Shown one piece after another: positions 5,654 to 54,998 of a DNA stretch of 64,000 nt (positions are counted from its first letter, which is position 1; each line of letters starts with the position of its first letter). The translations under genes were made by a program, and so were the position numbers. The DNA is from Olleya sp. YS (GTDB taxonomy: Bacteria; Bacteroidota; Bacteroidia; Flavobacteriales; Flavobacteriaceae), in contig NZ_CP121685.1 of assembly GCF_029760915.1 (NCBI RefSeq), positions 2,567,001-2,631,000 on the forward strand, in the 5' to 3' direction. A model generated the notes under the pieces. It searched no databases. It was not told the origin of the DNA and was given only the letters and a program-made list of their open reading frames with translations.

Positions 5654-8212
5654 ATGGCAGAAGGAGAAAAACTCATTCCAATTAACATTGAAGATGAAAT
5701 GAAATCAGCTTACATAGATTATTCTATGTCAGTCATTGTGTCACGTGCTTTACCAGATGTAAGAGATGGCTTAAAACCAGTACATAGACGCGTACTTTAT
5801 GGTATGCATGAACTGGGTGTAAGAGCTAACTCGGCACACAAAAAATCAGCAAGAATAGTTGGGGAAGTTTTAGGTAAGTATCACCCACATGGTGATACCT
5901 CAGTTTATGATACAATGGTTCGTATGGCTCAAGAATGGAGTTTACGTTACATGTTGGTAGATGGTCAAGGTAACTTCGGATCTGTAGATGGTGATAGCCC
6001 TGCAGCAATGCGTTATACAGAAGCGCGTATGCGTAAAATATCTGAAGACATGTTGGCAGATATCGATAAAGAGACCGTAGATCACAAATTAAATTTTGAT
6101 GATACTTTAGAAGAACCTACAGTATTACCAACTCGTATTCCTGGATTGCTAATCAATGGTGCATCTGGTATTGCAGTAGGTATGGCAACTAATATGCCAC
6201 CACATAACTTATCAGAAGTTGTTGATGGTACCATTGCATACATTGATAATCCAGATATTGAAATTGACGAAATTATTACACATATTAAAGCACCAGATTT
6301 TCCAACTGGAGGAACTATTTATGGTTATGATGGCGTAAAAGAAGCTTTTCATACAGGAAGAGGTCGTATTGTGATGCGTGCCAAAGCCAATATTGAAGAA
6401 GTTCAAGGACGTGAGTGTATTATAGTTGATGAAATACCATATCAAGTTAATAAAGCAGATATGATTAAAAAAACTGCTGACTTAATTAATGATAAAAAAT
6501 TAGAAGGGATTTCAACTATTCGTGATGAATCTGACCGTAATGGTATGCGAATTGTATATGTTTTAAAACGTGATGCCATTCCAAACATCGTACTTAATAA
6601 GTTGTTCAAGTATACCGCATTACAATCCTCTTTTAGTGTTAACAATATAGCATTAGTAAATGGTCGTCCAGAATTATTAAATGTCAAACAATTAATACAC
6701 TATTTTGTTGAACATAGACATGATGTTGTTGTTAGGCGTACGACTTATGAACTAAGAAAAGCTGAAGAGCGAGCGCATATCTTAGAAGGATTAATTATTG
6801 CTTCGGATAATATTGATGAAGTAATTAAGATTATTAGAGCCTCTTCCAATGCAGATGAAGCTCGTGCAAATTTAATAGAGCGATTTAAATTAAGCGAGAT
6901 TCAAGCTAAGGCAATCGTAGAGATGCGATTAAGACAACTTACAGGATTAGAGCAAGATAAGCTAAGAAGTGAGTATGAAGACATCATGAAAACTATTGAA
7001 GATCTTAAAGATATCCTAGACAAGAAGGAGCGCAGAATGCAAATCATTAAGGACGAATTACAAGTAGTAAAAGACAAATATGGTGATGCGCGTCGTTCTC
7101 AAATAGAATATGCTGGAGGAGATTTAAGTATAGAAGATATGATTCCGGATGAACAAGTAGTCATTACTATTTCTCATGCTGGTTACATTAAACGTACCTC
7201 TTTAACAGAATACAAAACACAAAATAGAGGAGGAGTTGGTCAAAAAGCATCAACCACTAGAAATGAAGATTTCTTAGAACATTTATTTGTTGGTACAAAT
7301 CACCAATACATGTTATTCTTTACCCAAAAAGGAAAATGTTTCTGGATGCGTGTTTACGAAATTCCAGAAGGTAGTAAAACTTCAAAAGGAAGAGCAATTC
7401 AAAACCTTATAAATATAGAGCAGGATGATAAAGTGATGGCGTTTATATGTACTCAAGATTTAAAAGATGAAGATTACATTAACAGTCACTATGTCATTAT
7501 GGCAACTAAAAAAGGACAAGTTAAAAAGACGTCTTTAGAGCAATATTCTAGACCAAGGACTAATGGTATTAATGCCATAACAATTAAAGATGGTGATGAA
7601 TTATTAGAAGCTAAATTAACTACAGGAAATAGTCAAGTGATGTTAGCGCTTAAATCTGGTAAAGCCATTAGATTTGAAGAAGCTAAAACTAGACCAATGG
7701 GTAGAAATGCATCAGGTGTAAGAGGTATTACTCTTGCTAGCGCTAAAGATGAAGTGATTGGTATGGTTACTATTGAAAGCCCACAAGAAGAAACTGTTCT
7801 TGTTGTTTCAGAGAATGGTTACGGAAAACGAACTTATATTGATGATCCAGAAGATGGTGAAGCAGTTTATAGAATAACCAATAGAGGAGGTAAAGGTGTA
7901 AAAACTATTTCAATATCAGAAAAAACAGGTAATTTAGTATCTATAAAATCTGTAACTGATACAGATGATTTAATGATTATCAATAAATCTGGAATTGCTA
8001 TACGTATGGCAGTAGAAAGTTTACGTACCATGGGAAGAGCTACACAGGGTGTAAAATTAATTAATCTAAAAGGAGACGATTCTATAGCTGCAGTTGCTAA
8101 AGTGATGAAAGATGATGATGAAGACGATTTAGAAAATATTGTTGCAGACCTTGAAAACACTAACAATTCTGAAGCTGGCACAACTATTGATAATACAGAT
8201 GAAGAAGAATAA
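5654..8212 (+). CDS. gyrA: DNA gyrase subunit A
   Basis: An 852-residue type IIA topoisomerase subunit that cuts and rejoins DNA to introduce negative supercoils together with GyrB. The N-terminal breakage-reunion domain carries the catalytic Tyr121 ([10 protein letters not shown]). The quinolone region reads [11 protein letters not shown], with Thr82 and Asp86 at the places of E. coli Ser83 and Asp87. A coiled-coil with YxxxL-type repeats follows, then a six-bladed C-terminal domain. The GyrA box is NRGGKG near residues 743-748, which separates it from ParC. The tail is strongly acidic. The ATG at 5654 gives the usual N-terminus. A TPR protein gene follows after 24 bases and probably shares the transcript. 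Confidence 0.95.
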
Positions 8213-42446: not shown

Positions 42447-43586
42447 ATGAAAATAGGTATAGTTTGTTATCCAACTTTTGGAGGAAGTGGAGTAGTAGCT
42501 ACAGAATTAGGGCTGGAATTATCTAAACGTGGACACGAAATCCATTTTATAACCTACAATCAACCTGTCAGACTGGAACTATTAGGTAATAACGTGCATT
42601 TTCACGAGGTAAACGTACCAGAATACCCCTTATTCCATTATCAACCCTACGAGTTAGCTTTATCTAGTAAATTAGTTGATATGGTTAAACTTCATAATAT
42701 TGAGGTGTTGCATGTGCATTATGCTATTCCTCATGCTTACGCAGCTTACATGGCTCAAAAAATGCTTAGAGAAGAAAATATTTATGTGCCTATAGTAACC
42801 ACTTTACATGGTACAGACATTACTTTAGTTGGTAGTCACCCATTTTACAAACCAGCAGTTACCTTTAGTATTAATAAATCTGACGCTGTAACAGCTGTAT
42901 CACAAAGTTTAAAGGATGATACGTTGCGTTTATTTGATATTAAAAATGACATTAACGTGGTCACTAACTTTATAGACATCAATAAATTTAGTCACGATTT
43001 TACAGATTGTCAACGTGCCATGATGGCTACAGATGAAGAAAAAATCATCACACACATTAGTAACATGAGAGAAGTAAAGCGTATTCCTGATGTAATTAAC
43101 ATTTTTAATAATATTCAAAAAGAAATTCCTGCAAAACTTATGATGGTAGGTGAAGGTCCAGAACGTGAGCCAGCTGAACGATTATGTCAAAAATTAGGCA
43201 TTAGTGATAAGGTGGTGTTTTTTGGAAATAGTAACGAGATTGACCGTATTTTATGCTTTTCAGATTTATTTTTATTACCAAGTAAAACAGAAAGCTTTGG
43301 TTTATCTGCTTTAGAAGCTATGGCGTCTGGAGTACCAGTAATTTCAAGTAATACTGGCGGAATACCTGAAGTTAATAAAGAGGGCTTTTCAGGATTTTTA
43401 AGTAACGTTGGAGATGTTGAAGCAATGAGCAAAAATGCACTTCATATTTTAAAAAGTGAAACTGTTTTAAAACAATTTAAGGTAAATGCTAAACAGCAAG
43501 CTAAAAACTTTGATATTCATCAAATTGTACCTAAATACGAAGCGATTTATCAAGACACATTAAATAAATGTCAAGTATTAAATTAA
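42447..43586 (+). CDS. bshA: N-acetyl-alpha-D-glucosaminyl L-malate synthase
   Basis: A 379-residue GT4 glycosyltransferase that joins N-acetylglucosamine from UDP-GlcNAc to L-malate, the first step of bacillithiol synthesis. The N-terminal GIVCYPTFGGSGVVATELG loop, HVHYAIPHAYA, and a C-terminal nucleotide-sugar EX7E-like motif (ESFGLSALEAMASGVPVI) are diagnostic. Length is typical. It means this cell very probably uses bacillithiol as its main low-molecular thiol, which matters for judging the glutathione-synthetase-like gene at 49.7 kb. bshB and bshC are not in the window. A terminator follows at once. Confidence 0.94.
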   Translation: MKIGIVCYPTFGGSGVVATELGLELSKRGHEIHFITYNQPVRLELLGNNVHFHEVNVPEYPLFHYQPYELALSSKLVDMVKLHNIEVLHVHYAIPHAYAAYMAQKMLREENIYVPIVTTLHGTDITLVGSHPFYKPAVTFSINKSDAVTAVSQSLKDDTLRLFDIKNDINVVTNFIDINKFSHDFTDCQRAMMATDEEKIITHISNMREVKRIPDVINIFNNIQKEIPAKLMMVGEGPEREPAERLCQKLGISDKVVFFGNSNEIDRILCFSDLFLLPSKTESFGLSALEAMASGVPVISSNTGGIPEVNKEGFSGFLSNVGDVEAMSKNALHILKSETVLKQFKVNAKQQAKNFDIHQIVPKYEAIYQDTLNKCQVLN

Positions 43587-48299: not shown

Positions 48300-49616
48300 A
48301 TGAAACTAGCATTACACTGGAAGATAATTATCGGAATGGTTTTAGGAGTTGGCTTTGGCTTTATCATGAACTCTGTAGTAGGAGGAAAAGACATCGTAAC
48401 CGACTGGATCGCACCTTTTGGCACCATTTTCATCAACCTTTTAAAGATGATTGCAGTGCCTTTAATTTTAGCTTCGCTCATTAAAGGAATTTCAGATTTA
48501 AAAGACATTTCAAAAATCAAATCAATGGGTTTACGTACCATCAGTATTTATATTGGTACGACGTTAGTTGCTATTATTATTGGATTAAGCATCGTCAACA
48601 TTGTTAAGCCAGGTGAGGGAATGCCAACCGAAACCATTGAAAAAATTAAAACCACGTATCAAGGTAATGCAGATGTCATGATTGGTAAAGCAAAAGCCAC
48701 TCAAGATGCTGGACCATTACAAGCATTAGTTGACATTTTTCCGAGTAATGTGTTTAAAGCATTTGTAGAAGCGTCAATGCTTCAAGTAATTTTCTTTGCT
48801 TTATTTGTAGGGATTTGTTTGTTGCTAATACCTGAGAAAAAAGCCAAGCCTCTAGTAGATTTCTTTGACTCGTTAAACGAAGTTGTCATGAAAATGGTTG
48901 ATTTAATTATGCTTTTTGCACCTTATGCTGTGTTTGCATTAATGGCAAATGTTATTATTGCGTTTGATGACACGACTATCTTAATTAAGCTTTTAGGTTA
49001 TGCGTTTTGTGTACTTGGTGGTTTAATTTTAATGATAGGTTTCTATATGTTGCTTATTAAGTTTGTGGCTAAAAAATCGCCTTCATGGTTTTTAAACAAA
49101 CTAAGTCCAGCACAATTATTAGCATTTTCAACGTCTAGTAGTGCTGCAACGCTACCTGTTACTATGGAACGTGTAGAAGAGCACCTTGGTGTAGATAAAG
49201 AAGTGTCCGGATTTGTATTACCTGTAGGTGCAACTGTAAATATGGATGGTACAAGCTTGTATCAAGGTATTGCAGCAGTGTTTATCATGCAAGTCATTTG
49301 GCCAGAAGGTTTAACGTTTACAAATCAACTTGTGATTGTTGGAACTGCATTATTAGCGTCTATTGGTAGTGCTGCAGTGCCTAGTGCAGGTATGGTCATG
49401 TTGGTAATTGTATTAGAAGCAATAGGGTTTCCAGCAGAATTACTGCCAATTGGATTAGCACTAATTTTTGCTGTAGATAGACCATTAGATATGTGCAGAA
49501 CGGTTGTAAATGTTACTGGTGATGCTACAGTATCTATGCTTGTAGCCAAGTCATTAGGTAAACTACATGACCCTAAACCTAAAGAATGGGATGATCATTA
49601 TGATAAAGTGAAGTAA
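48300..49616 (+). CDS. Dicarboxylate/amino acid:cation symporter (DAACS family)
   Basis: A 438-residue inner membrane protein of the glutamate/aspartate and C4-dicarboxylate carrier family. About eight TM helices plus two re-entrant hairpins are predicted. The serine-rich hairpin SPAQLLAFSTSSSAATLPVTM and the cation/substrate motif LPVGATVNMDGTSLYQ are plain, as is SIGSAAVPSAGMVML for the second hairpin and DRPLDMCRTVVNVTGD for the substrate helix. The Arg in the last motif favours acidic substrates such as glutamate, aspartate or dicarboxylates. Length is typical. It is flanked by the REP-like element and a hairpin. Confidence 0.92.
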   Translation: MKLALHWKIIIGMVLGVGFGFIMNSVVGGKDIVTDWIAPFGTIFINLLKMIAVPLILASLIKGISDLKDISKIKSMGLRTISIYIGTTLVAIIIGLSIVNIVKPGEGMPTETIEKIKTTYQGNADVMIGKAKATQDAGPLQALVDIFPSNVFKAFVEASMLQVIFFALFVGICLLLIPEKKAKPLVDFFDSLNEVVMKMVDLIMLFAPYAVFALMANVIIAFDDTTILIKLLGYAFCVLGGLILMIGFYMLLIKFVAKKSPSWFLNKLSPAQLLAFSTSSSAATLPVTMERVEEHLGVDKEVSGFVLPVGATVNMDGTSLYQGIAAVFIMQVIWPEGLTFTNQLVIVGTALLASIGSAAVPSAGMVMLVIVLEAIGFPAELLPIGLALIFAVDRPLDMCRTVVNVTGDATVSMLVAKSLGKLHDPKPKEWDDHYDKVK

Positions 49617-49741: not shown

Positions 49742-50782
49742 ATGAATATTTGCTTCATCATGTATCCATGGGAAGATATAGATCCAGAAAACGATACTAG
49801 TTTAGCGCTTATTAAAGAATGTGTTAAACGTAATCATGGTGTGGCGACTTGCACACCAGCAAATTTAACAATACGCGATAGTGTGACTAATGCATTTTGT
49901 ACAGTTGTTAAACGTATGGATAAAACACCGTCTTCTTTAAAAGCATTTTATAAAAAAGCAGAATTAAGAGACGAGATGTTACCATTAGCAGGTTTTGATG
50001 CCATATTTTTTAGAGCGAATCCGCCTTTAGACCCAATTATGCTTAACTTTTTAGATTCGGTAAAGGATGATGTCTTTATAGTAAATTCACTACAAGGTAT
50101 GCGTGAAGCTAACAATAAGCTATACACAGCAGCTTTTGGTGATGCACATAGTAACATCATACCTAATACACATGTATCAAAAAATAAAAAGTATTTAATT
50201 GAGCAAATAAAAGACAGTAAAGCAGATAAAATGATTTTAAAACCTTTGAATGGTTTTGGAGGTTCTGGTGTTATTTTAATTGAAAAATCTGCAATGAGTA
50301 ATATTAACTCATTATTAGATTTCTACATCAATAGTTCTGGTGATGGAACCTCAAATTATGTCATTTTACAAGATTACATAGAAGGAGCAGATCAAGGTGA
50401 TGTTAGAATATTATTGCTTAACGGAGAGCCAGTTGGTGCTATGAAGCGTGTTCCAGGATCTGACGATCATCGTTCTAATGTGTCTGCTGGTGGGAGTGTA
50501 CAAAAACATTCCTTAACTAAAGAAGAAAAAGCGTTATGCAAACAAATTGGACCTAAATTAGTTAAAGACGGATTGTATTTTGTAGGTATTGATGTGATAG
50601 GTGGTAAACTTGTAGAAGTCAACGTGATGTCGCCTGGTGGCATAACTTACATTAATAAAGTCTATAAAAACAAATATAAAGTTGAGGAAAAAGTGATTGA
50701 CTTTTTAGAAAGTAAAGTATTGGACAATTTAGAAGCTTTTAATAGACGTTCTCGTTTACGAAAAACAGTAGAAGATGCGTAA
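49742..50782 (+). CDS. Glutathione-synthetase-like ATP-grasp ligase
   Basis: A 346-residue ATP-grasp enzyme. The N-terminal preATP-grasp domain (about 1-120) has FRANPPLDP, as in prokaryotic GshB. The ATP-grasp domain has MILKPLNGFGGSGV (ATP lysine and glycine loop), VILQDYI, then GDVRILLLNGEPVGAMKR and the GSDDHRSNVSAGG loop, ending with EVNVMSPGG for magnesium binding. GshB joins gamma-Glu-Cys and glycine. Here bshA indicates bacillithiol use and no gshA is seen, so the true substrate is probably another carboxylate and amine. It heads a five-gene run with two hydrolases. ATG at 49742. Confidence 0.88.
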   Translation: MNICFIMYPWEDIDPENDTSLALIKECVKRNHGVATCTPANLTIRDSVTNAFCTVVKRMDKTPSSLKAFYKKAELRDEMLPLAGFDAIFFRANPPLDPIMLNFLDSVKDDVFIVNSLQGMREANNKLYTAAFGDAHSNIIPNTHVSKNKKYLIEQIKDSKADKMILKPLNGFGGSGVILIEKSAMSNINSLLDFYINSSGDGTSNYVILQDYIEGADQGDVRILLLNGEPVGAMKRVPGSDDHRSNVSAGGSVQKHSLTKEEKALCKQIGPKLVKDGLYFVGIDVIGGKLVEVNVMSPGGITYINKVYKNKYKVEEKVIDFLESKVLDNLEAFNRRSRLRKTVEDA

Positions 50783-50805
50783 TTCAGTAGTTTTAATTAA
50801 TTAAA

Positions 50806-51969
50806 ATGTCAAAAGCAATTGAAGGTTTTGGAGATTTAGTTTCAGTTAATTGGCTGAAACATCATTTAAATGATGACAACCTTATAGTTTTGGATGCTAG
50901 TATTCCAAAAGTTACTGATAAAACTTCCAAGTTGTCAGAGTTACAAATTCCAAATGCTAGATTTTTCGACATAAAAAATAAGTTTAGCGATACTAAAGCA
51001 CGCTTTCCTAATACGATTCCTTCAGAAATTCAATTTGAAAAATCTGCTCAAGAGTTAGGTATAAATAATGATAGTATTATTGTTGTTTATGACCATTTAG
51101 GAATATACTCTAGTCCGCGTGCTTGGTGGTTATTTAAAACTTTTGGACATCAAAATATTGCAGTTTTAGATGGTGGTTTACCAGAATGGATAAATCATGG
51201 ATTTTCTACAGTAAAAAAAGAATCTAAAAGTTTTGATTTAGGATATTTTAAAGCAAAATATAACCCAAACAACGTGGTCTATTTTGAGTCTATAGATATG
51301 ATTGCTCAAGACCCAAATTTTAAAATTATTGATGCTCGCTCTAATGATAGATTTAAATGTTTAATACCAGAACCAAGAGAGGGTTTACGGTCAGGAACCA
51401 TATCTAACTCCATAAACTTACCTTTTGAAACTATCTTAAATGATATTAAGCTAAAATCTACTCAAGAGTTAAAAATAATATTTAATGCATTAGCCAAACC
51501 TAATCAACACTTAGTATTTAGTTGTGGTTCTGGTATTACTGCTTCTATATTAAGTTTAGCAGCTACTATCGTAGGATATAATAACAGTGTTTACGATGGA
51601 TCGTGGACAGAATACGGAATATTAACAACAGCAACTATGGACAAACCAAACACTTGGACTAAAGACGAATTATTAGCTTACATTTTGCTTTTTGTCGCAC
51701 ATTCAGATTTAGATGAAACTAGAAAAGAAAAAGACTATATTTTATCCAGAGTAGATAAAAAAGTATACCAACGTGTACATGAACAGTTTGATCAGGATAA
51801 TGACTATCAAAGTATTCAAAATATTATTGAAGGTGTAAAAACTCACGATTATTACCGTAATGATTTAGCCGATTTGTTTGCAGATATTAAATTGATGGCA
51901 TTTGCAGATGGCGAAATGGATATTATGGAAAATATGGCTTACAACTTATTAAAGAAGATCTTGAAATAG
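50806..51969 (+). CDS. Two-domain sulfurtransferase fused to a TerB-like domain
   Basis: A 387-residue protein. The first 275 residues are tandem rhodanese domains of the SseA/3-mercaptopyruvate sulfurtransferase type: LIVLDAS, SSPRAWWLFKTFGH and DGGLPEW in the inactive first domain, and the active loop SCGSGITAS with Cys240 in the second, followed by DGSWTEYG. A linker leads to a helical C-terminal domain (about 278-387) like the TerB-type proteins that occur alone in flavobacteria (WTKDELLAYILLFVAHSD, FADIKLMAFADGEMD). The fused part opens with its own Met278. It follows the ligase by 23 bases and abuts the RDD gene. Confidence 0.85.
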   Translation: MSKAIEGFGDLVSVNWLKHHLNDDNLIVLDASIPKVTDKTSKLSELQIPNARFFDIKNKFSDTKARFPNTIPSEIQFEKSAQELGINNDSIIVVYDHLGIYSSPRAWWLFKTFGHQNIAVLDGGLPEWINHGFSTVKKESKSFDLGYFKAKYNPNNVVYFESIDMIAQDPNFKIIDARSNDRFKCLIPEPREGLRSGTISNSINLPFETILNDIKLKSTQELKIIFNALAKPNQHLVFSCGSGITASILSLAATIVGYNNSVYDGSWTEYGILTTATMDKPNTWTKDELLAYILLFVAHSDLDETRKEKDYILSRVDKKVYQRVHEQFDQDNDYQSIQNIIEGVKTHDYYRNDLADLFADIKLMAFADGEMDIMENMAYNLLKKILK

Positions 51970-53010
51970 ATGAGCATATTTGAAAAAAACTCAAAATGGG
52001 TCGTTAAAAATATTGCTTGGATTGCTATATTAATTGGAGGTTTTAAAATATTAAGTAATATAATTTATATTTTCTTTAATAGTAAATTAGGGTATTATTT
52101 AGATTTTATTCCAATAGATCTAGCATTAGGTAATTGGTTTTTTATGTATTTAAATATTAATAATGAATTTAGAGGGTTTGATTTATTAACCTTGTTTTTA
52201 TCGTTTGCTTTAATTATTGGAGCAATTATTTATGAAAGAACAAATACAAGAGAAAATAAACTACTCAATTTTTCTTTTGCAGTTTTATTTATTGGCACAA
52301 TTTTTAAAATATGTCAACAACCAATAGAAATTGTTTTTATTAATCAATTTGACAAAATGAATGAATCAATTTTTTATATAGAACAAAACATGCACTTTTG
52401 GTTTAATCAAATTTATCAGTTGATACTTAATCTTATTTTATTTTTTATCAGTTATTATGTTTTAAAACAATGGAATAATAAGAAGCAATTATTACAAACA
52501 GAGACCAATATTAATCAGGAAAGTGATTATATTATTTCAAAAAAATGGAAACGTGTAGTACATTTAATAATTGATTTAACTATTTATTTCTTCATATCCT
52601 TCATGTTTTTCAATAAGTTAATTCAATTAATATCAACTAAATTGCATTTTCATGAATCGTTAGGAAGATATTTCGGGATAGCCCTTATGTTAGTTTTTAC
52701 TTTAGCTTATTATACTTTTTTTGAATATTTATTCAAAATAACTCCTGCTAAAATTATAACACACTCTAAAGTTATCAGTAAAACAAATGAAAATTTGAAT
52801 ATAAAGTCATTTTTAAAGAGGAGTTTAATAAGGCTTATTCCATTTAATCCGTTTTCTTATTTATTTATTGAAGGATGGCATGATGGTTTATCAAATACAA
52901 CAGTTGTTGATGTTAAAGAAGAATCAAGTTATAAGATTGTTTATTGGTTATTATTTATTTTACTTATAGCATCTATAGTTTTTAATATATTATTTAATCC
53001 TTTTGTCTAG
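51970..53010 (+). CDS. Membrane protein with C-terminal RDD domain
   Basis: A 346-residue protein with about seven or eight TM helices. The N-terminal four (about 15-35, 65-85, 98-115 and 145-165) are not recognised. The C-terminal part (about 188-325) has the features of an RDD domain: KRVVHLIIDLTIYFFISF, ITPAKIITHSKVI in place of the usual GKTPGK turn, SFLKRSLIRLIPFNP, and WHDGLSNTTVVD. RDD proteins have been linked to ion antiport, but this is not general. The ATG directly follows the preceding stop without a gap and the next gene begins 3 bases after its end, so it is firmly embedded in the operon. Confidence 0.75.
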   Translation: MSIFEKNSKWVVKNIAWIAILIGGFKILSNIIYIFFNSKLGYYLDFIPIDLALGNWFFMYLNINNEFRGFDLLTLFLSFALIIGAIIYERTNTRENKLLNFSFAVLFIGTIFKICQQPIEIVFINQFDKMNESIFYIEQNMHFWFNQIYQLILNLILFFISYYVLKQWNNKKQLLQTETNINQESDYIISKKWKRVVHLIIDLTIYFFISFMFFNKLIQLISTKLHFHESLGRYFGIALMLVFTLAYYTFFEYLFKITPAKIITHSKVISKTNENLNIKSFLKRSLIRLIPFNPFSYLFIEGWHDGLSNTTVVDVKEESSYKIVYWLLFILLIASIVFNILFNPFV

Positions 53011-53013
53011 TCA

Positions 53014-53841
53014 ATGCAAAAACTTAGTATTAATCAAATCATTTCTAAAATTGAAGCAGAAGAAGTGTTTCATGCAGTTTCAGAAGACTATTCATTCACT
53101 TTAAAGATTGACAGTTATGTGCATTATGTTTGTGGTGCAGTACATGATGGACATCAATTTAGAAAAGAGCTATGGGATAATTGTCTACATACTGAATATG
53201 AACGTTGGTACGAGGAAGATCCAGAAACCAAAAATATGGTGGCTTCACATCCTATTGTCATTGCTGGAATGGACTCACGTTTTGAATACGATTTAAATCG
53301 TGCTCCAGAGACTGCTATATATACTGATGCTTGGGGAAAACAACTTTGGAAAAACCCTTTACCTGAGAATCAAAAACAAAAGTCGCTAGATAAACACGCT
53401 AATTTTTATAAAGTCGTTAAAGCTTTAATACATAAAATTGAAACTAAGTTTGGATTATGTGTGGTTTACGATATGCATAGTTATAACTGGAAACGATGGG
53501 ATAGAGAAGTACCAACTTGGAATTTAGGAACCTCGAATGTTGATAATGAAAGATTTGGACATGATATTGAAACTTGGCGACAAAGTTTAAGCGAGCTACA
53601 ATTACCAAACGGAATACAAAGTACTTCAAAAATAAATGATACCTTTCAAGGTAATGGTTATTTTTTAAAATTTATTACCCAAAACTTTAAAAATACCTTA
53701 GTTTTGGCAACCGAAATTGCCAAAGTCTATTGTGATGAATATGACTACATTATGTATCCAGAAGTCGTCAAAGCAGTAGAGCAGCAATTAAGAGCAAGAC
53801 TAGTAGCACATGCCAATGGGTTTTATAAAGCGCATAGATAA
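53014..53841 (+). CDS. N-formylglutamate amidohydrolase-like zinc hydrolase
   Basis: A 275-residue member of the FGase family, which hydrolyses N-acyl glutamate or related amides with a metal-bound water and is distantly related to zinc carboxypeptidases. YDMHSYNW (His155) and VIAGMDSRFEYDLNRAPETA are the family segments visible, and ATEIAKVYCDEY near the C-terminus carries a conserved Glu. The usual hut context is absent, since hutH is 50 kb away. Here it lies between a membrane protein and a zincin gene in an ATP-grasp operon, so a role in trimming an acyl-glutamyl or peptide product is more likely than histidine breakdown. Its stop overlaps the next ATG (TAATG). Confidence 0.85.
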   Translation: MQKLSINQIISKIEAEEVFHAVSEDYSFTLKIDSYVHYVCGAVHDGHQFRKELWDNCLHTEYERWYEEDPETKNMVASHPIVIAGMDSRFEYDLNRAPETAIYTDAWGKQLWKNPLPENQKQKSLDKHANFYKVVKALIHKIETKFGLCVVYDMHSYNWKRWDREVPTWNLGTSNVDNERFGHDIETWRQSLSELQLPNGIQSTSKINDTFQGNGYFLKFITQNFKNTLVLATEIAKVYCDEYDYIMYPEVVKAVEQQLRARLVAHANGFYKAHR

Positions 53842-54998
53842 TGACTGAAACGTTAGAAGAAAAATACCAAAACCTATTTGACATAGATTCTAATCTTAAC
53901 CGCTTGGTTAAAAAGATAGAATTACTTAATTACATCAATCCATTAAACATTGAAAGCGAAAAGAAACAATTTTATGGCTCTAAATATAATTACGAGCCTA
54001 ATTTTAAGTATCCAAAACAGCGCTTTAATGGGTATAAGTTACATAGGTTGTTTTTCTCGCAACGTTTAGAACGTATTAAAAACGAAGACATTAGAGCTTT
54101 ATACAAAGATATTATATACGAATATTCTGGTTTAATTGAGTGTATAGAGACTATTGGTAAAGGACGCAAATTCTACTTTAACAGTTTAAAAAGTTTTGGT
54201 ACACCAACTGAAAAAGATATAGAAAACGCAAAATTTATTCTACGTTTTGATGATAGCGATTTTGAAGAAGCGATGCTTCCACTATACAATGTAGACGATG
54301 CAATTGCTTATTTTGAAGAGTACTCTAAACGCTACGATTTTAAGTATGCTATTAAAAAGTCAACTAATATTTCTGCAGCAGCAATGGTGCAAAACAACAC
54401 GCAAACTTTAGTATTACGTAAAAACCACAAGTTTAGTAAAAACCAATTAGCAGTATTGGCAAACCATGAGATAGGTGTGCATATGGTTACTACTTTTAAT
54501 GGATTAGCTCAGCCTTTAAAAGTGTTTTCCAATGGTTTTCCAAATAATGTAGAAACCCAAGAAGGATTGGCTGTATATTCAGAATATATGTCTGGTAGTT
54601 TGACCATTACACGTTTAAAAGAGTTGGCCTATCGTGTTATAGCTTCAGACAGTTTAGCTAAAGGATATTCGTTTTCTGCAACTTTCGACTTACTTCATAA
54701 TCAATATAAATTAAACCGAGACAAAGCATTTGTCATAACACTACGTGTGCATCGTGGTGGTGGTTTTACTAAAGATCATTTGTATTTAACTGGATTAAAA
54801 AAAGTGTATGATTATGCTAAATCTGGAGAAGATTTAAATGTCTTATTAACTGGTAAAGTCACCTTAGAGTATAAAGACACCATCTTAAAAATGCAAGAAT
54901 TAGGATTAGCAATACCGTCTAAGTATTATACAGACTCTTATTTAAACAATGATAATGCAGATAGCAATTTCGATTTTATTTTAAAAAGTTTAAAATAA
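53841..54998 (+). CDS. DUF1704 / QEGLA-motif zincin metallopeptidase (MATCAP relative)
   Basis: A 385-residue cytoplasmic protein of the family often called flavohemoglobin expression-modulating QEGLA protein. The metal site is the unusual HEXXXH: His209, Glu210 and His214 in ANHEIGVHMVT, with the third ligand Glu241 in TQEGLAVYSEYMSG. The animal relatives MATCAP1 and MATCAP2 use the same HEXXXH and remove the C-terminal tyrosine of tubulin, so a carboxypeptidase action is a fair inference. A C-terminal VHRGGGFTKDHLYL is conserved in the family. Translation is coupled to the FGase-like gene by a 1-base overlap. The natural substrate is unknown. A folded element follows the stop at once. Confidence 0.88.
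   Translation: MTETLEEKYQNLFDIDSNLNRLVKKIELLNYINPLNIESEKKQFYGSKYNYEPNFKYPKQRFNGYKLHRLFFSQRLERIKNEDIRALYKDIIYEYSGLIECIETIGKGRKFYFNSLKSFGTPTEKDIENAKFILRFDDSDFEEAMLPLYNVDDAIAYFEEYSKRYDFKYAIKKSTNISAAAMVQNNTQTLVLRKNHKFSKNQLAVLANHEIGVHMVTTFNGLAQPLKVFSNGFPNNVETQEGLAVYSEYMSGSLTITRLKELAYRVIASDSLAKGYSFSATFDLLHNQYKLNRDKAFVITLRVHRGGGFTKDHLYLTGLKKVYDYAKSGEDLNVLLTGKVTLEYKDTILKMQELGLAIPSKYYTDSYLNNDNADSNFDFILKSLK

Follow-up and report, generated by a model that had tools for sequence, protein, structure and literature searches.

The gene group and its products

The subject of this report is a group of five genes in Olleya sp. YS (family Flavobacteriaceae), the genome of which is a single 3.0 Mb contig (NZ_CP121685.1). 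The genes lie in a stretch of 64,000 nucleotides, referred to here as the window, and three of them, which encode a GshB-like ATP-grasp ligase, an FGase-like amidohydrolase and a MATCAP-type zincin, make up what we call the trio. An earlier note on this DNA had described five same-strand genes with intergenic gaps of 23, 0 and 3 bases and, in the last pair, an overlap of one base, and the positions of the open reading frames (ORFs) confirm this arrangement (Table 1).

Table 1. The five genes of the group, with their predicted products
Predicted product	Position in the window	Strand	Remarks
GshB-like ATP-grasp ligase (PRK12458 type), 346 aa	49742..50782	+	Core; Pfam and NF009110
Rhodanese-type sulfurtransferase with C-terminal extra domain of ~117 aa, 387 aa	50806..51969	+	Accessory, clade-restricted
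RDD-family membrane protein, 346 aa	51970..53010	+	Accessory; in 1 of 80 related loci
FGase-like M14-fold zinc amidohydrolase, 275 aa	53014..53841	+	Core
MATCAP/DUF1704 (QEGLA) zinc carboxypeptidase-type protein, 385 aa	53841..54998	+	Core; predicted from sequence

The ligase matches the Pfam families GSH-S_N (83.8 bits) and GSH-S_ATP (184.9 bits) and passes PRK12458 (NF009110) with 460.3 bits versus a cut-off of 408. The FGase scores 49.9 bits on its profile (PF05013, cut-off 28.9) and the zincin 324 bits on the MATCAP profile (PF08014, cut-off 27); judged by fold, both proteins also belong to these families. The two accessory genes match Rhodanese (80.2 bits) and RDD (45.7 bits). The C-terminal 117 amino acids of the sulfurtransferase had been labelled TerB, and this identity was dropped because the segment has no Pfam match at E values up to 5.

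Conservation of the gene order

A scan with the window zincin as query provided a set of at least 80 named loci; the zincin was the bait, and so this set cannot by itself prove co-occurrence. The ligase, FGase and zincin genes are present in that order on one strand in 70 of the 80 loci, and in 49 of these 70 the FGase and zincin alignments are separated by 0-19 bases. The remaining ten consist of five loci that end at a contig edge, four with the zincin alone (Joostella and Galbibacter) and one deletion. The nearest named locus is that of Olleya aquimaris (96% over the zincin). The gene order is thus not confined to close relatives.

The accessory genes display a different pattern. The rhodanese part is present in 26 of the 80 loci, its C-terminal part in 20 and both in 14, three of which have them in one ORF; the RDD protein has a match in a single locus (L026, 27%). 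Consequently, the five-gene module of the earlier note is retained as a ligase-FGase-zincin unit, and the five-gene unit as such is rejected because the rhodanese gene is restricted to particular clades and the RDD gene is close to unique.

Some individual loci are worth mentioning. Bizionia algoritergicola (L093:7634-8396) retains just the beginning of the ligase gene and the final part of the zincin gene, the module having been lost there through a deletion. One genome of the window's own genus (G366) has no MATCAP match, and so the module is either absent or was lost inside the genus. Where the zincin occurs without the ligase and FGase (L076, L083, L084 and L149-L158), it is located directly 3' of a gene for an SDF-type dicarboxylate/amino-acid symporter, and in L076, L083 and L084 the two genes overlap near 7965-8001. 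An SDF symporter gene also precedes the trio in the window (48300-49616). Its place is kept in L014-L092, with identities to the window copy of about 46 to 90%, a range so wide that it looks as if paralogues had swapped at that place.

Co-occurrence of the ligase and the zincin

Each family was also searched on its own in two genome samples that have genomes in common, one from the window's class (395 genomes) and one from its family (249 genomes). In the class sample, the zincin is present in 19 genomes and the trio-type ligase in 18, all of which have the zincin (Fisher 3.3e-30, a value that ignores kinship). The ligase cut was set after the scores had been seen: no trio-type ligase scores below 394 bits, and the other four matches, all in genomes without the zincin, reach at most 215 bits. 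The positive genomes are spread over seven families. A first draw of 198 genomes had the same seven genomes positive for zincin and ligase, and all seven are within the 395.

In the family sample, in which ligase matches with E values up to 1e-40 were accepted, 127 genomes have the zincin and 119 the ligase; both are present in 119, the ligase alone in none and the zincin alone in eight. Two of the 119 genomes were counted from incomplete matches: G212 has a piece scoring 201 bits at the end of a contig, and in G388 the match is in two pieces. The genes are also close together: of the 137 ligase matches, 135 have a same-strand zincin no more than 6 kb away, and of the 142 zincin matches, 131 have a ligase placed in this way. 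Together with the plasmid records described below, these searches indicate that the ligase and zincin are a real unit, as had been proposed, far past close relatives, and the coupling of ligase, zincin and M14-fold amidohydrolase genes is close to certain.

Properties of the ligase

The solved relatives of the ligase are of the GshB and RimK types (1gsa, E 3e-36), and the Pfam search at E 0.01 found no TTL family match in it. In the ligase tree, the trio ligases group with two GshB rows and away from three RimK rows with a support of 100/100; the two trio ligase clades may or may not be one group apart from the two GshB rows (supports of 86/24 and 85/65). Residues K126, K167, E292 and N294 are kept in 79 of 79 rows. 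The metal ligands of the zincin (H209, E210, H214 and E241, i.e., HExxxH plus a downstream Glu) are likewise kept in 93 of 93 rows and in all 35 clade-B rows, and so both sets of residues, the possible loss of which had been raised earlier, are intact in the homologs.

Two clades of zincins and their M14-fold partners

A tree of 51 zincin rows separates clade A from clade B with a support of 100/100. Clade A consists of the window type and four FGase-zincin fusions identified by Pfam (L010, L012, L094 and L098). The window zincin fails the QEGLA cut-off of TIGR02421 (303.7 versus 338.65), and the Photobacterium and Vibrio fusions pass it (459.9 and 470.3).

Clade-B zincins have about 230-275 additional N-terminal residues that resemble the FGase profile (hhalign 95.8%, E 6.8e-9; the controls gave 0.4% for AstE and 0.1% for the ligase). 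Pfam found no FGase match to this part in the members tried. None of the 35 clade-B rows has His at the FGase residue H44 and one has it at H155, and 34 have a gap where N95 and R96 would be. With these residues lost, the N-terminal part is a degenerate FGase domain.

By ORF calls, 34 of the 35 clade-B loci have the ligase, 23 an AstE_AspA gene and seven the FGase; the last figure is an undercount, since some genes of GC-rich rhizobial loci escaped the ORF calling. AstE_AspA and FGase never occur together in these calls. The missed ligase (L095) is present in the annotation. The FGases of L095 and L167 were confirmed by Pfam and that of L101 is taken from the annotation, and in L011 the AstE gene is 3.1 kb away from the ligase. 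The 23 AstE-locus rows form one group in the tree (support 92/92, below the tree program's star), and so it looks as if the M14-fold partner was exchanged once rather than picked up at random. The kinship of FGase and AstE is based here on the fold match 2bco and on motifs, AstE having an M14-like fold; a phmmer search of the FGase against solved structures returned nothing up to E 1.

A few loci have additional ligases. In L145, L160 and L161 a single gene row has an FGase and a long zincin between two ligases, one of each clade, which looks like two ligations in succession with a hydrolase for each. In L162:7310-9463 the clade-B ligase is tandemly duplicated and adjoins the zincin and AstE. 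Three of 11 RimK-type ATP-grasp loci with flanks of about 1.5 kb (L111, L115 and L116) have an adjoining AstE-like gene, which is, as predicted from these gene neighborhoods, a second ligase-AstE pairing.

Plasmids and a possible response to salinity

Evidence from the Pseudomonadota comes from plasmid records, genome co-occurrence having been sampled in the window's class and family. Zincin matches are present in 127 of 72,556 plasmid records, and eight hits were inspected by annotation or ORFs. Genes for FGase, QEGLA and 'glutathione synthase' adjoin in Shinella, Aminobacter, Pararhizobium, S. meliloti and a record named Roseateles, and in Photobacterium sp. DA100 the ligase overlaps an FGase-zincin fusion. 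The locus of S. meliloti SM11 (L099) was read from its ORFs. The gene row of the Roseateles sp. XES5 plasmid locus is the same as that of the Shinella plasmid locus (L095 and L097), and the Roseateles name may therefore be wrong. One of 50,697 phage records has a match, a 176-aa MATCAP-like stretch (L100:5001-5561) in the UNVERIFIED Pseudomonas phage Y1.

In a published comparison of Photobacterium damselae at 1% versus 3% NaCl, RS17020 (glutathione synthase GshB, +38.42), RS17025 (QEGLA, +27.51) and RimK (+52.24) are all up (PMC10308900). RS17020 and RS17025 were taken to belong to the trio from their names, their consecutive tags and the Photobacterium sp. DA100 record. For V. vulnificus, VV2_1203 (COG3930) and VV2_1204 (glutathione synthetase) are neighbouring tags in a published table (PMC3091676).

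A possible make-and-break cycle

To judge from the sequences, the ligase, the MATCAP zincin and an M14-fold amidohydrolase (FGase, or AstE/AspA in one branch) are co-inherited with their predicted active-site residues kept, and presumably they catalyze opposite reactions on one substrate pool. Our preferred explanation, plausible but tentative, is that the three core enzymes form and break an amide bond in a cycle and that the product is a small peptide-like metabolite other than glutathione. The substrate of the ligase would be an amino-acid conjugate, either a dipeptide or an N-acyl amino acid, in the way that gamma-Glu-Cys is the substrate of GshB; the enzyme would activate a free carboxylate of this conjugate and couple an amino acid there. 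The zincin would remove the C-terminal residue again, and the FGase or AstE enzyme would cleave the remaining amide and release an acidic amino acid. In this way the conjugate could be made and degraded as needed, perhaps in step with salinity. The uncertain step is that the substrate is a small metabolite. A small conjugate is favoured because the ligase is GshB-like and because free N-acyl amino acids are the substrates of those FGase and AstE relatives whose function is known. The earlier interpretation stands as to the conserved ligase-zincin unit, the missing gshA and the intact residues, and it fails where it placed the rhodanese and RDD genes in the core. The counterpart of the tyrosination cycle that it also proposed is at most hypothetical, the ligase being a GshB relative.

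Several observations weigh against the make-and-break cycle. The human enzyme TMCP1 failed to cut a three-residue peptide (PMC12612596), and this result disfavours very small substrates. The zincin occurs without the ligase in G460 of the class sample, in the four named loci mentioned above and in the eight genomes of the family sample (one of them, G263, at a contig end), which would imply that it is able to act alone in some way. Two clade-B loci (L163 and L164) have neither FGase nor AstE adjoining; the Vibrio sp. HDW18 fusion lacks an adjoining ligase and has Tyr in place of H155 in its FGase domain; and a direct hhalign comparison of the FGase and AstE profiles gives a probability of 1.7%. 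Finally, in the Photobacterium data the ligase and hydrolases rise under the same condition, which would not be expected of a cycle that is simply switched on and off.

A different, rather unlikely, explanation is that the ligase adds residues such as Glu or Tyr to the C-terminus of one or more proteins and that these are taken off again by the M14-fold enzyme and the zincin, much as the TTL/TTLL, MATCAP and CCP enzymes add and remove residues on tubulin. The TMCP1 result and the AstE-like neighbors of the RimK-type genes keep such a protein substrate in consideration; however, the ligase resembles GshB rather than TTL or RimK, the characterized FGase and AstE relatives have free compounds as their substrates, as noted above, and the clusters have no recurring candidate target gene. 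Less likely still is a further version, in which the trio would write and erase a code on the C-termini of bacterial proteins, salinity being one of the cues, and in which the eukaryotic MATCAP enzymes would descend from such a system.

More doubtful again is a synthesis of gamma-glutamyl thiols or a glutathione-like compound, in which some other enzyme would carry out the first step, the ligase would act as glutathione synthase and the hydrolases would recycle the product. The ligase does pass one glutathione synthase model (PRK05246, NF003573; 279.9 versus 272), but it fails another (TIGR01380; 235.8 versus 299.05). At L065:5878-7074, between the ligase and FGase, one gene encodes a domain of the gamma-glutamyl cyclotransferase type (GGACT/AIG2), and a GCS2-like CBS protein near L011 reaches 14.5 bits, under the cut-off of 21. 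Against this, neither PF04107 (GCS2) nor PF04262 (Glu_cys_ligase) has a match in the Olleya genome, although both searches were positive in control genomes, and no gshA-type gene was found elsewhere in it. The bshA gene, correctly placed at 42447 in the earlier note (TIGR03999, 567.6 bits), is accompanied in the genome by BshC (463.2 bits), and the two suggest bacillithiol. Ordinary glutathione synthesis, already thought to be less likely, is therefore rejected. Immediately after the metal-binding Asn, 53 of 56 trio rows have a PGG loop, whereas three GshB rows have PTC, PTG and ATG there, a hint that the ligase has a different substrate.

A ribosomal-peptide or other natural-product cluster, with enzymes that mature a precursor peptide, is very improbable; such clusters contain ATP-grasp ligases and peptidases, but the 50 surveyed loci (ORFs of at least 80 aa called) have no recurrent precursor or exporter, and in most Flavobacteriaceae loci the trio is placed between aroC and mutS2.

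Significance and comparison with known systems

Many bacteria have this conserved three-enzyme set, which is apparently undescribed: neither a description of the trio nor a stated role for the bacterial MATCAP/DUF1704 family was found in the literature searched, which covered few subscription journals. Tubulin trimming by the animal MATCAP enzymes was demonstrated only recently. The bacterial zincin is nearly always accompanied by a single type of ligase and by an M14-fold amidohydrolase of one of two kinds, and so the question of what this family does becomes one about an operon of three assayable enzymes. The annotation can also be corrected, as public records call the trio ligase 'glutathione synthase', yet the window genome has no gshA-type gene and is, by gene content, a bacillithiol maker.

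Each component resembles a known enzyme. The human MATCAP proteins TMCP1 and TMCP2 (KIAA0895L and KIAA0895) have about 21% identity to the bacterial zincin over the fold; unlike the human protein, the bacterial zincin adjoins a ligase and an amidohydrolase. E. coli GshB (1gsa) has the domain architecture and ATP-grasp residues of the trio ligase, but the latter has a PGG loop instead of PTC and resides in a genome without gshA. The N-formylglutamate amidohydrolases (2q7s, 2odf and HutG) have about 15% identity to the trio FGase, which, unlike HutG, has no hut context and fails the HutG model (TIGR02017; 17.2 bits versus 278.75). The AstE/AspA amidohydrolases, which have the M14-like fold and occupy the place of the FGase in 23 of the 35 clade-B loci, are a separate family that is absent from the window cluster. 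As a whole, the trio is reminiscent of the mammalian NAA/NAAG cycle, which consists of RIMKL ATP-grasp ligases, a C-terminal carboxypeptidase and an AspA-type aspartoacylase; the likeness is in logic only, as the ligase and peptidase families differ.
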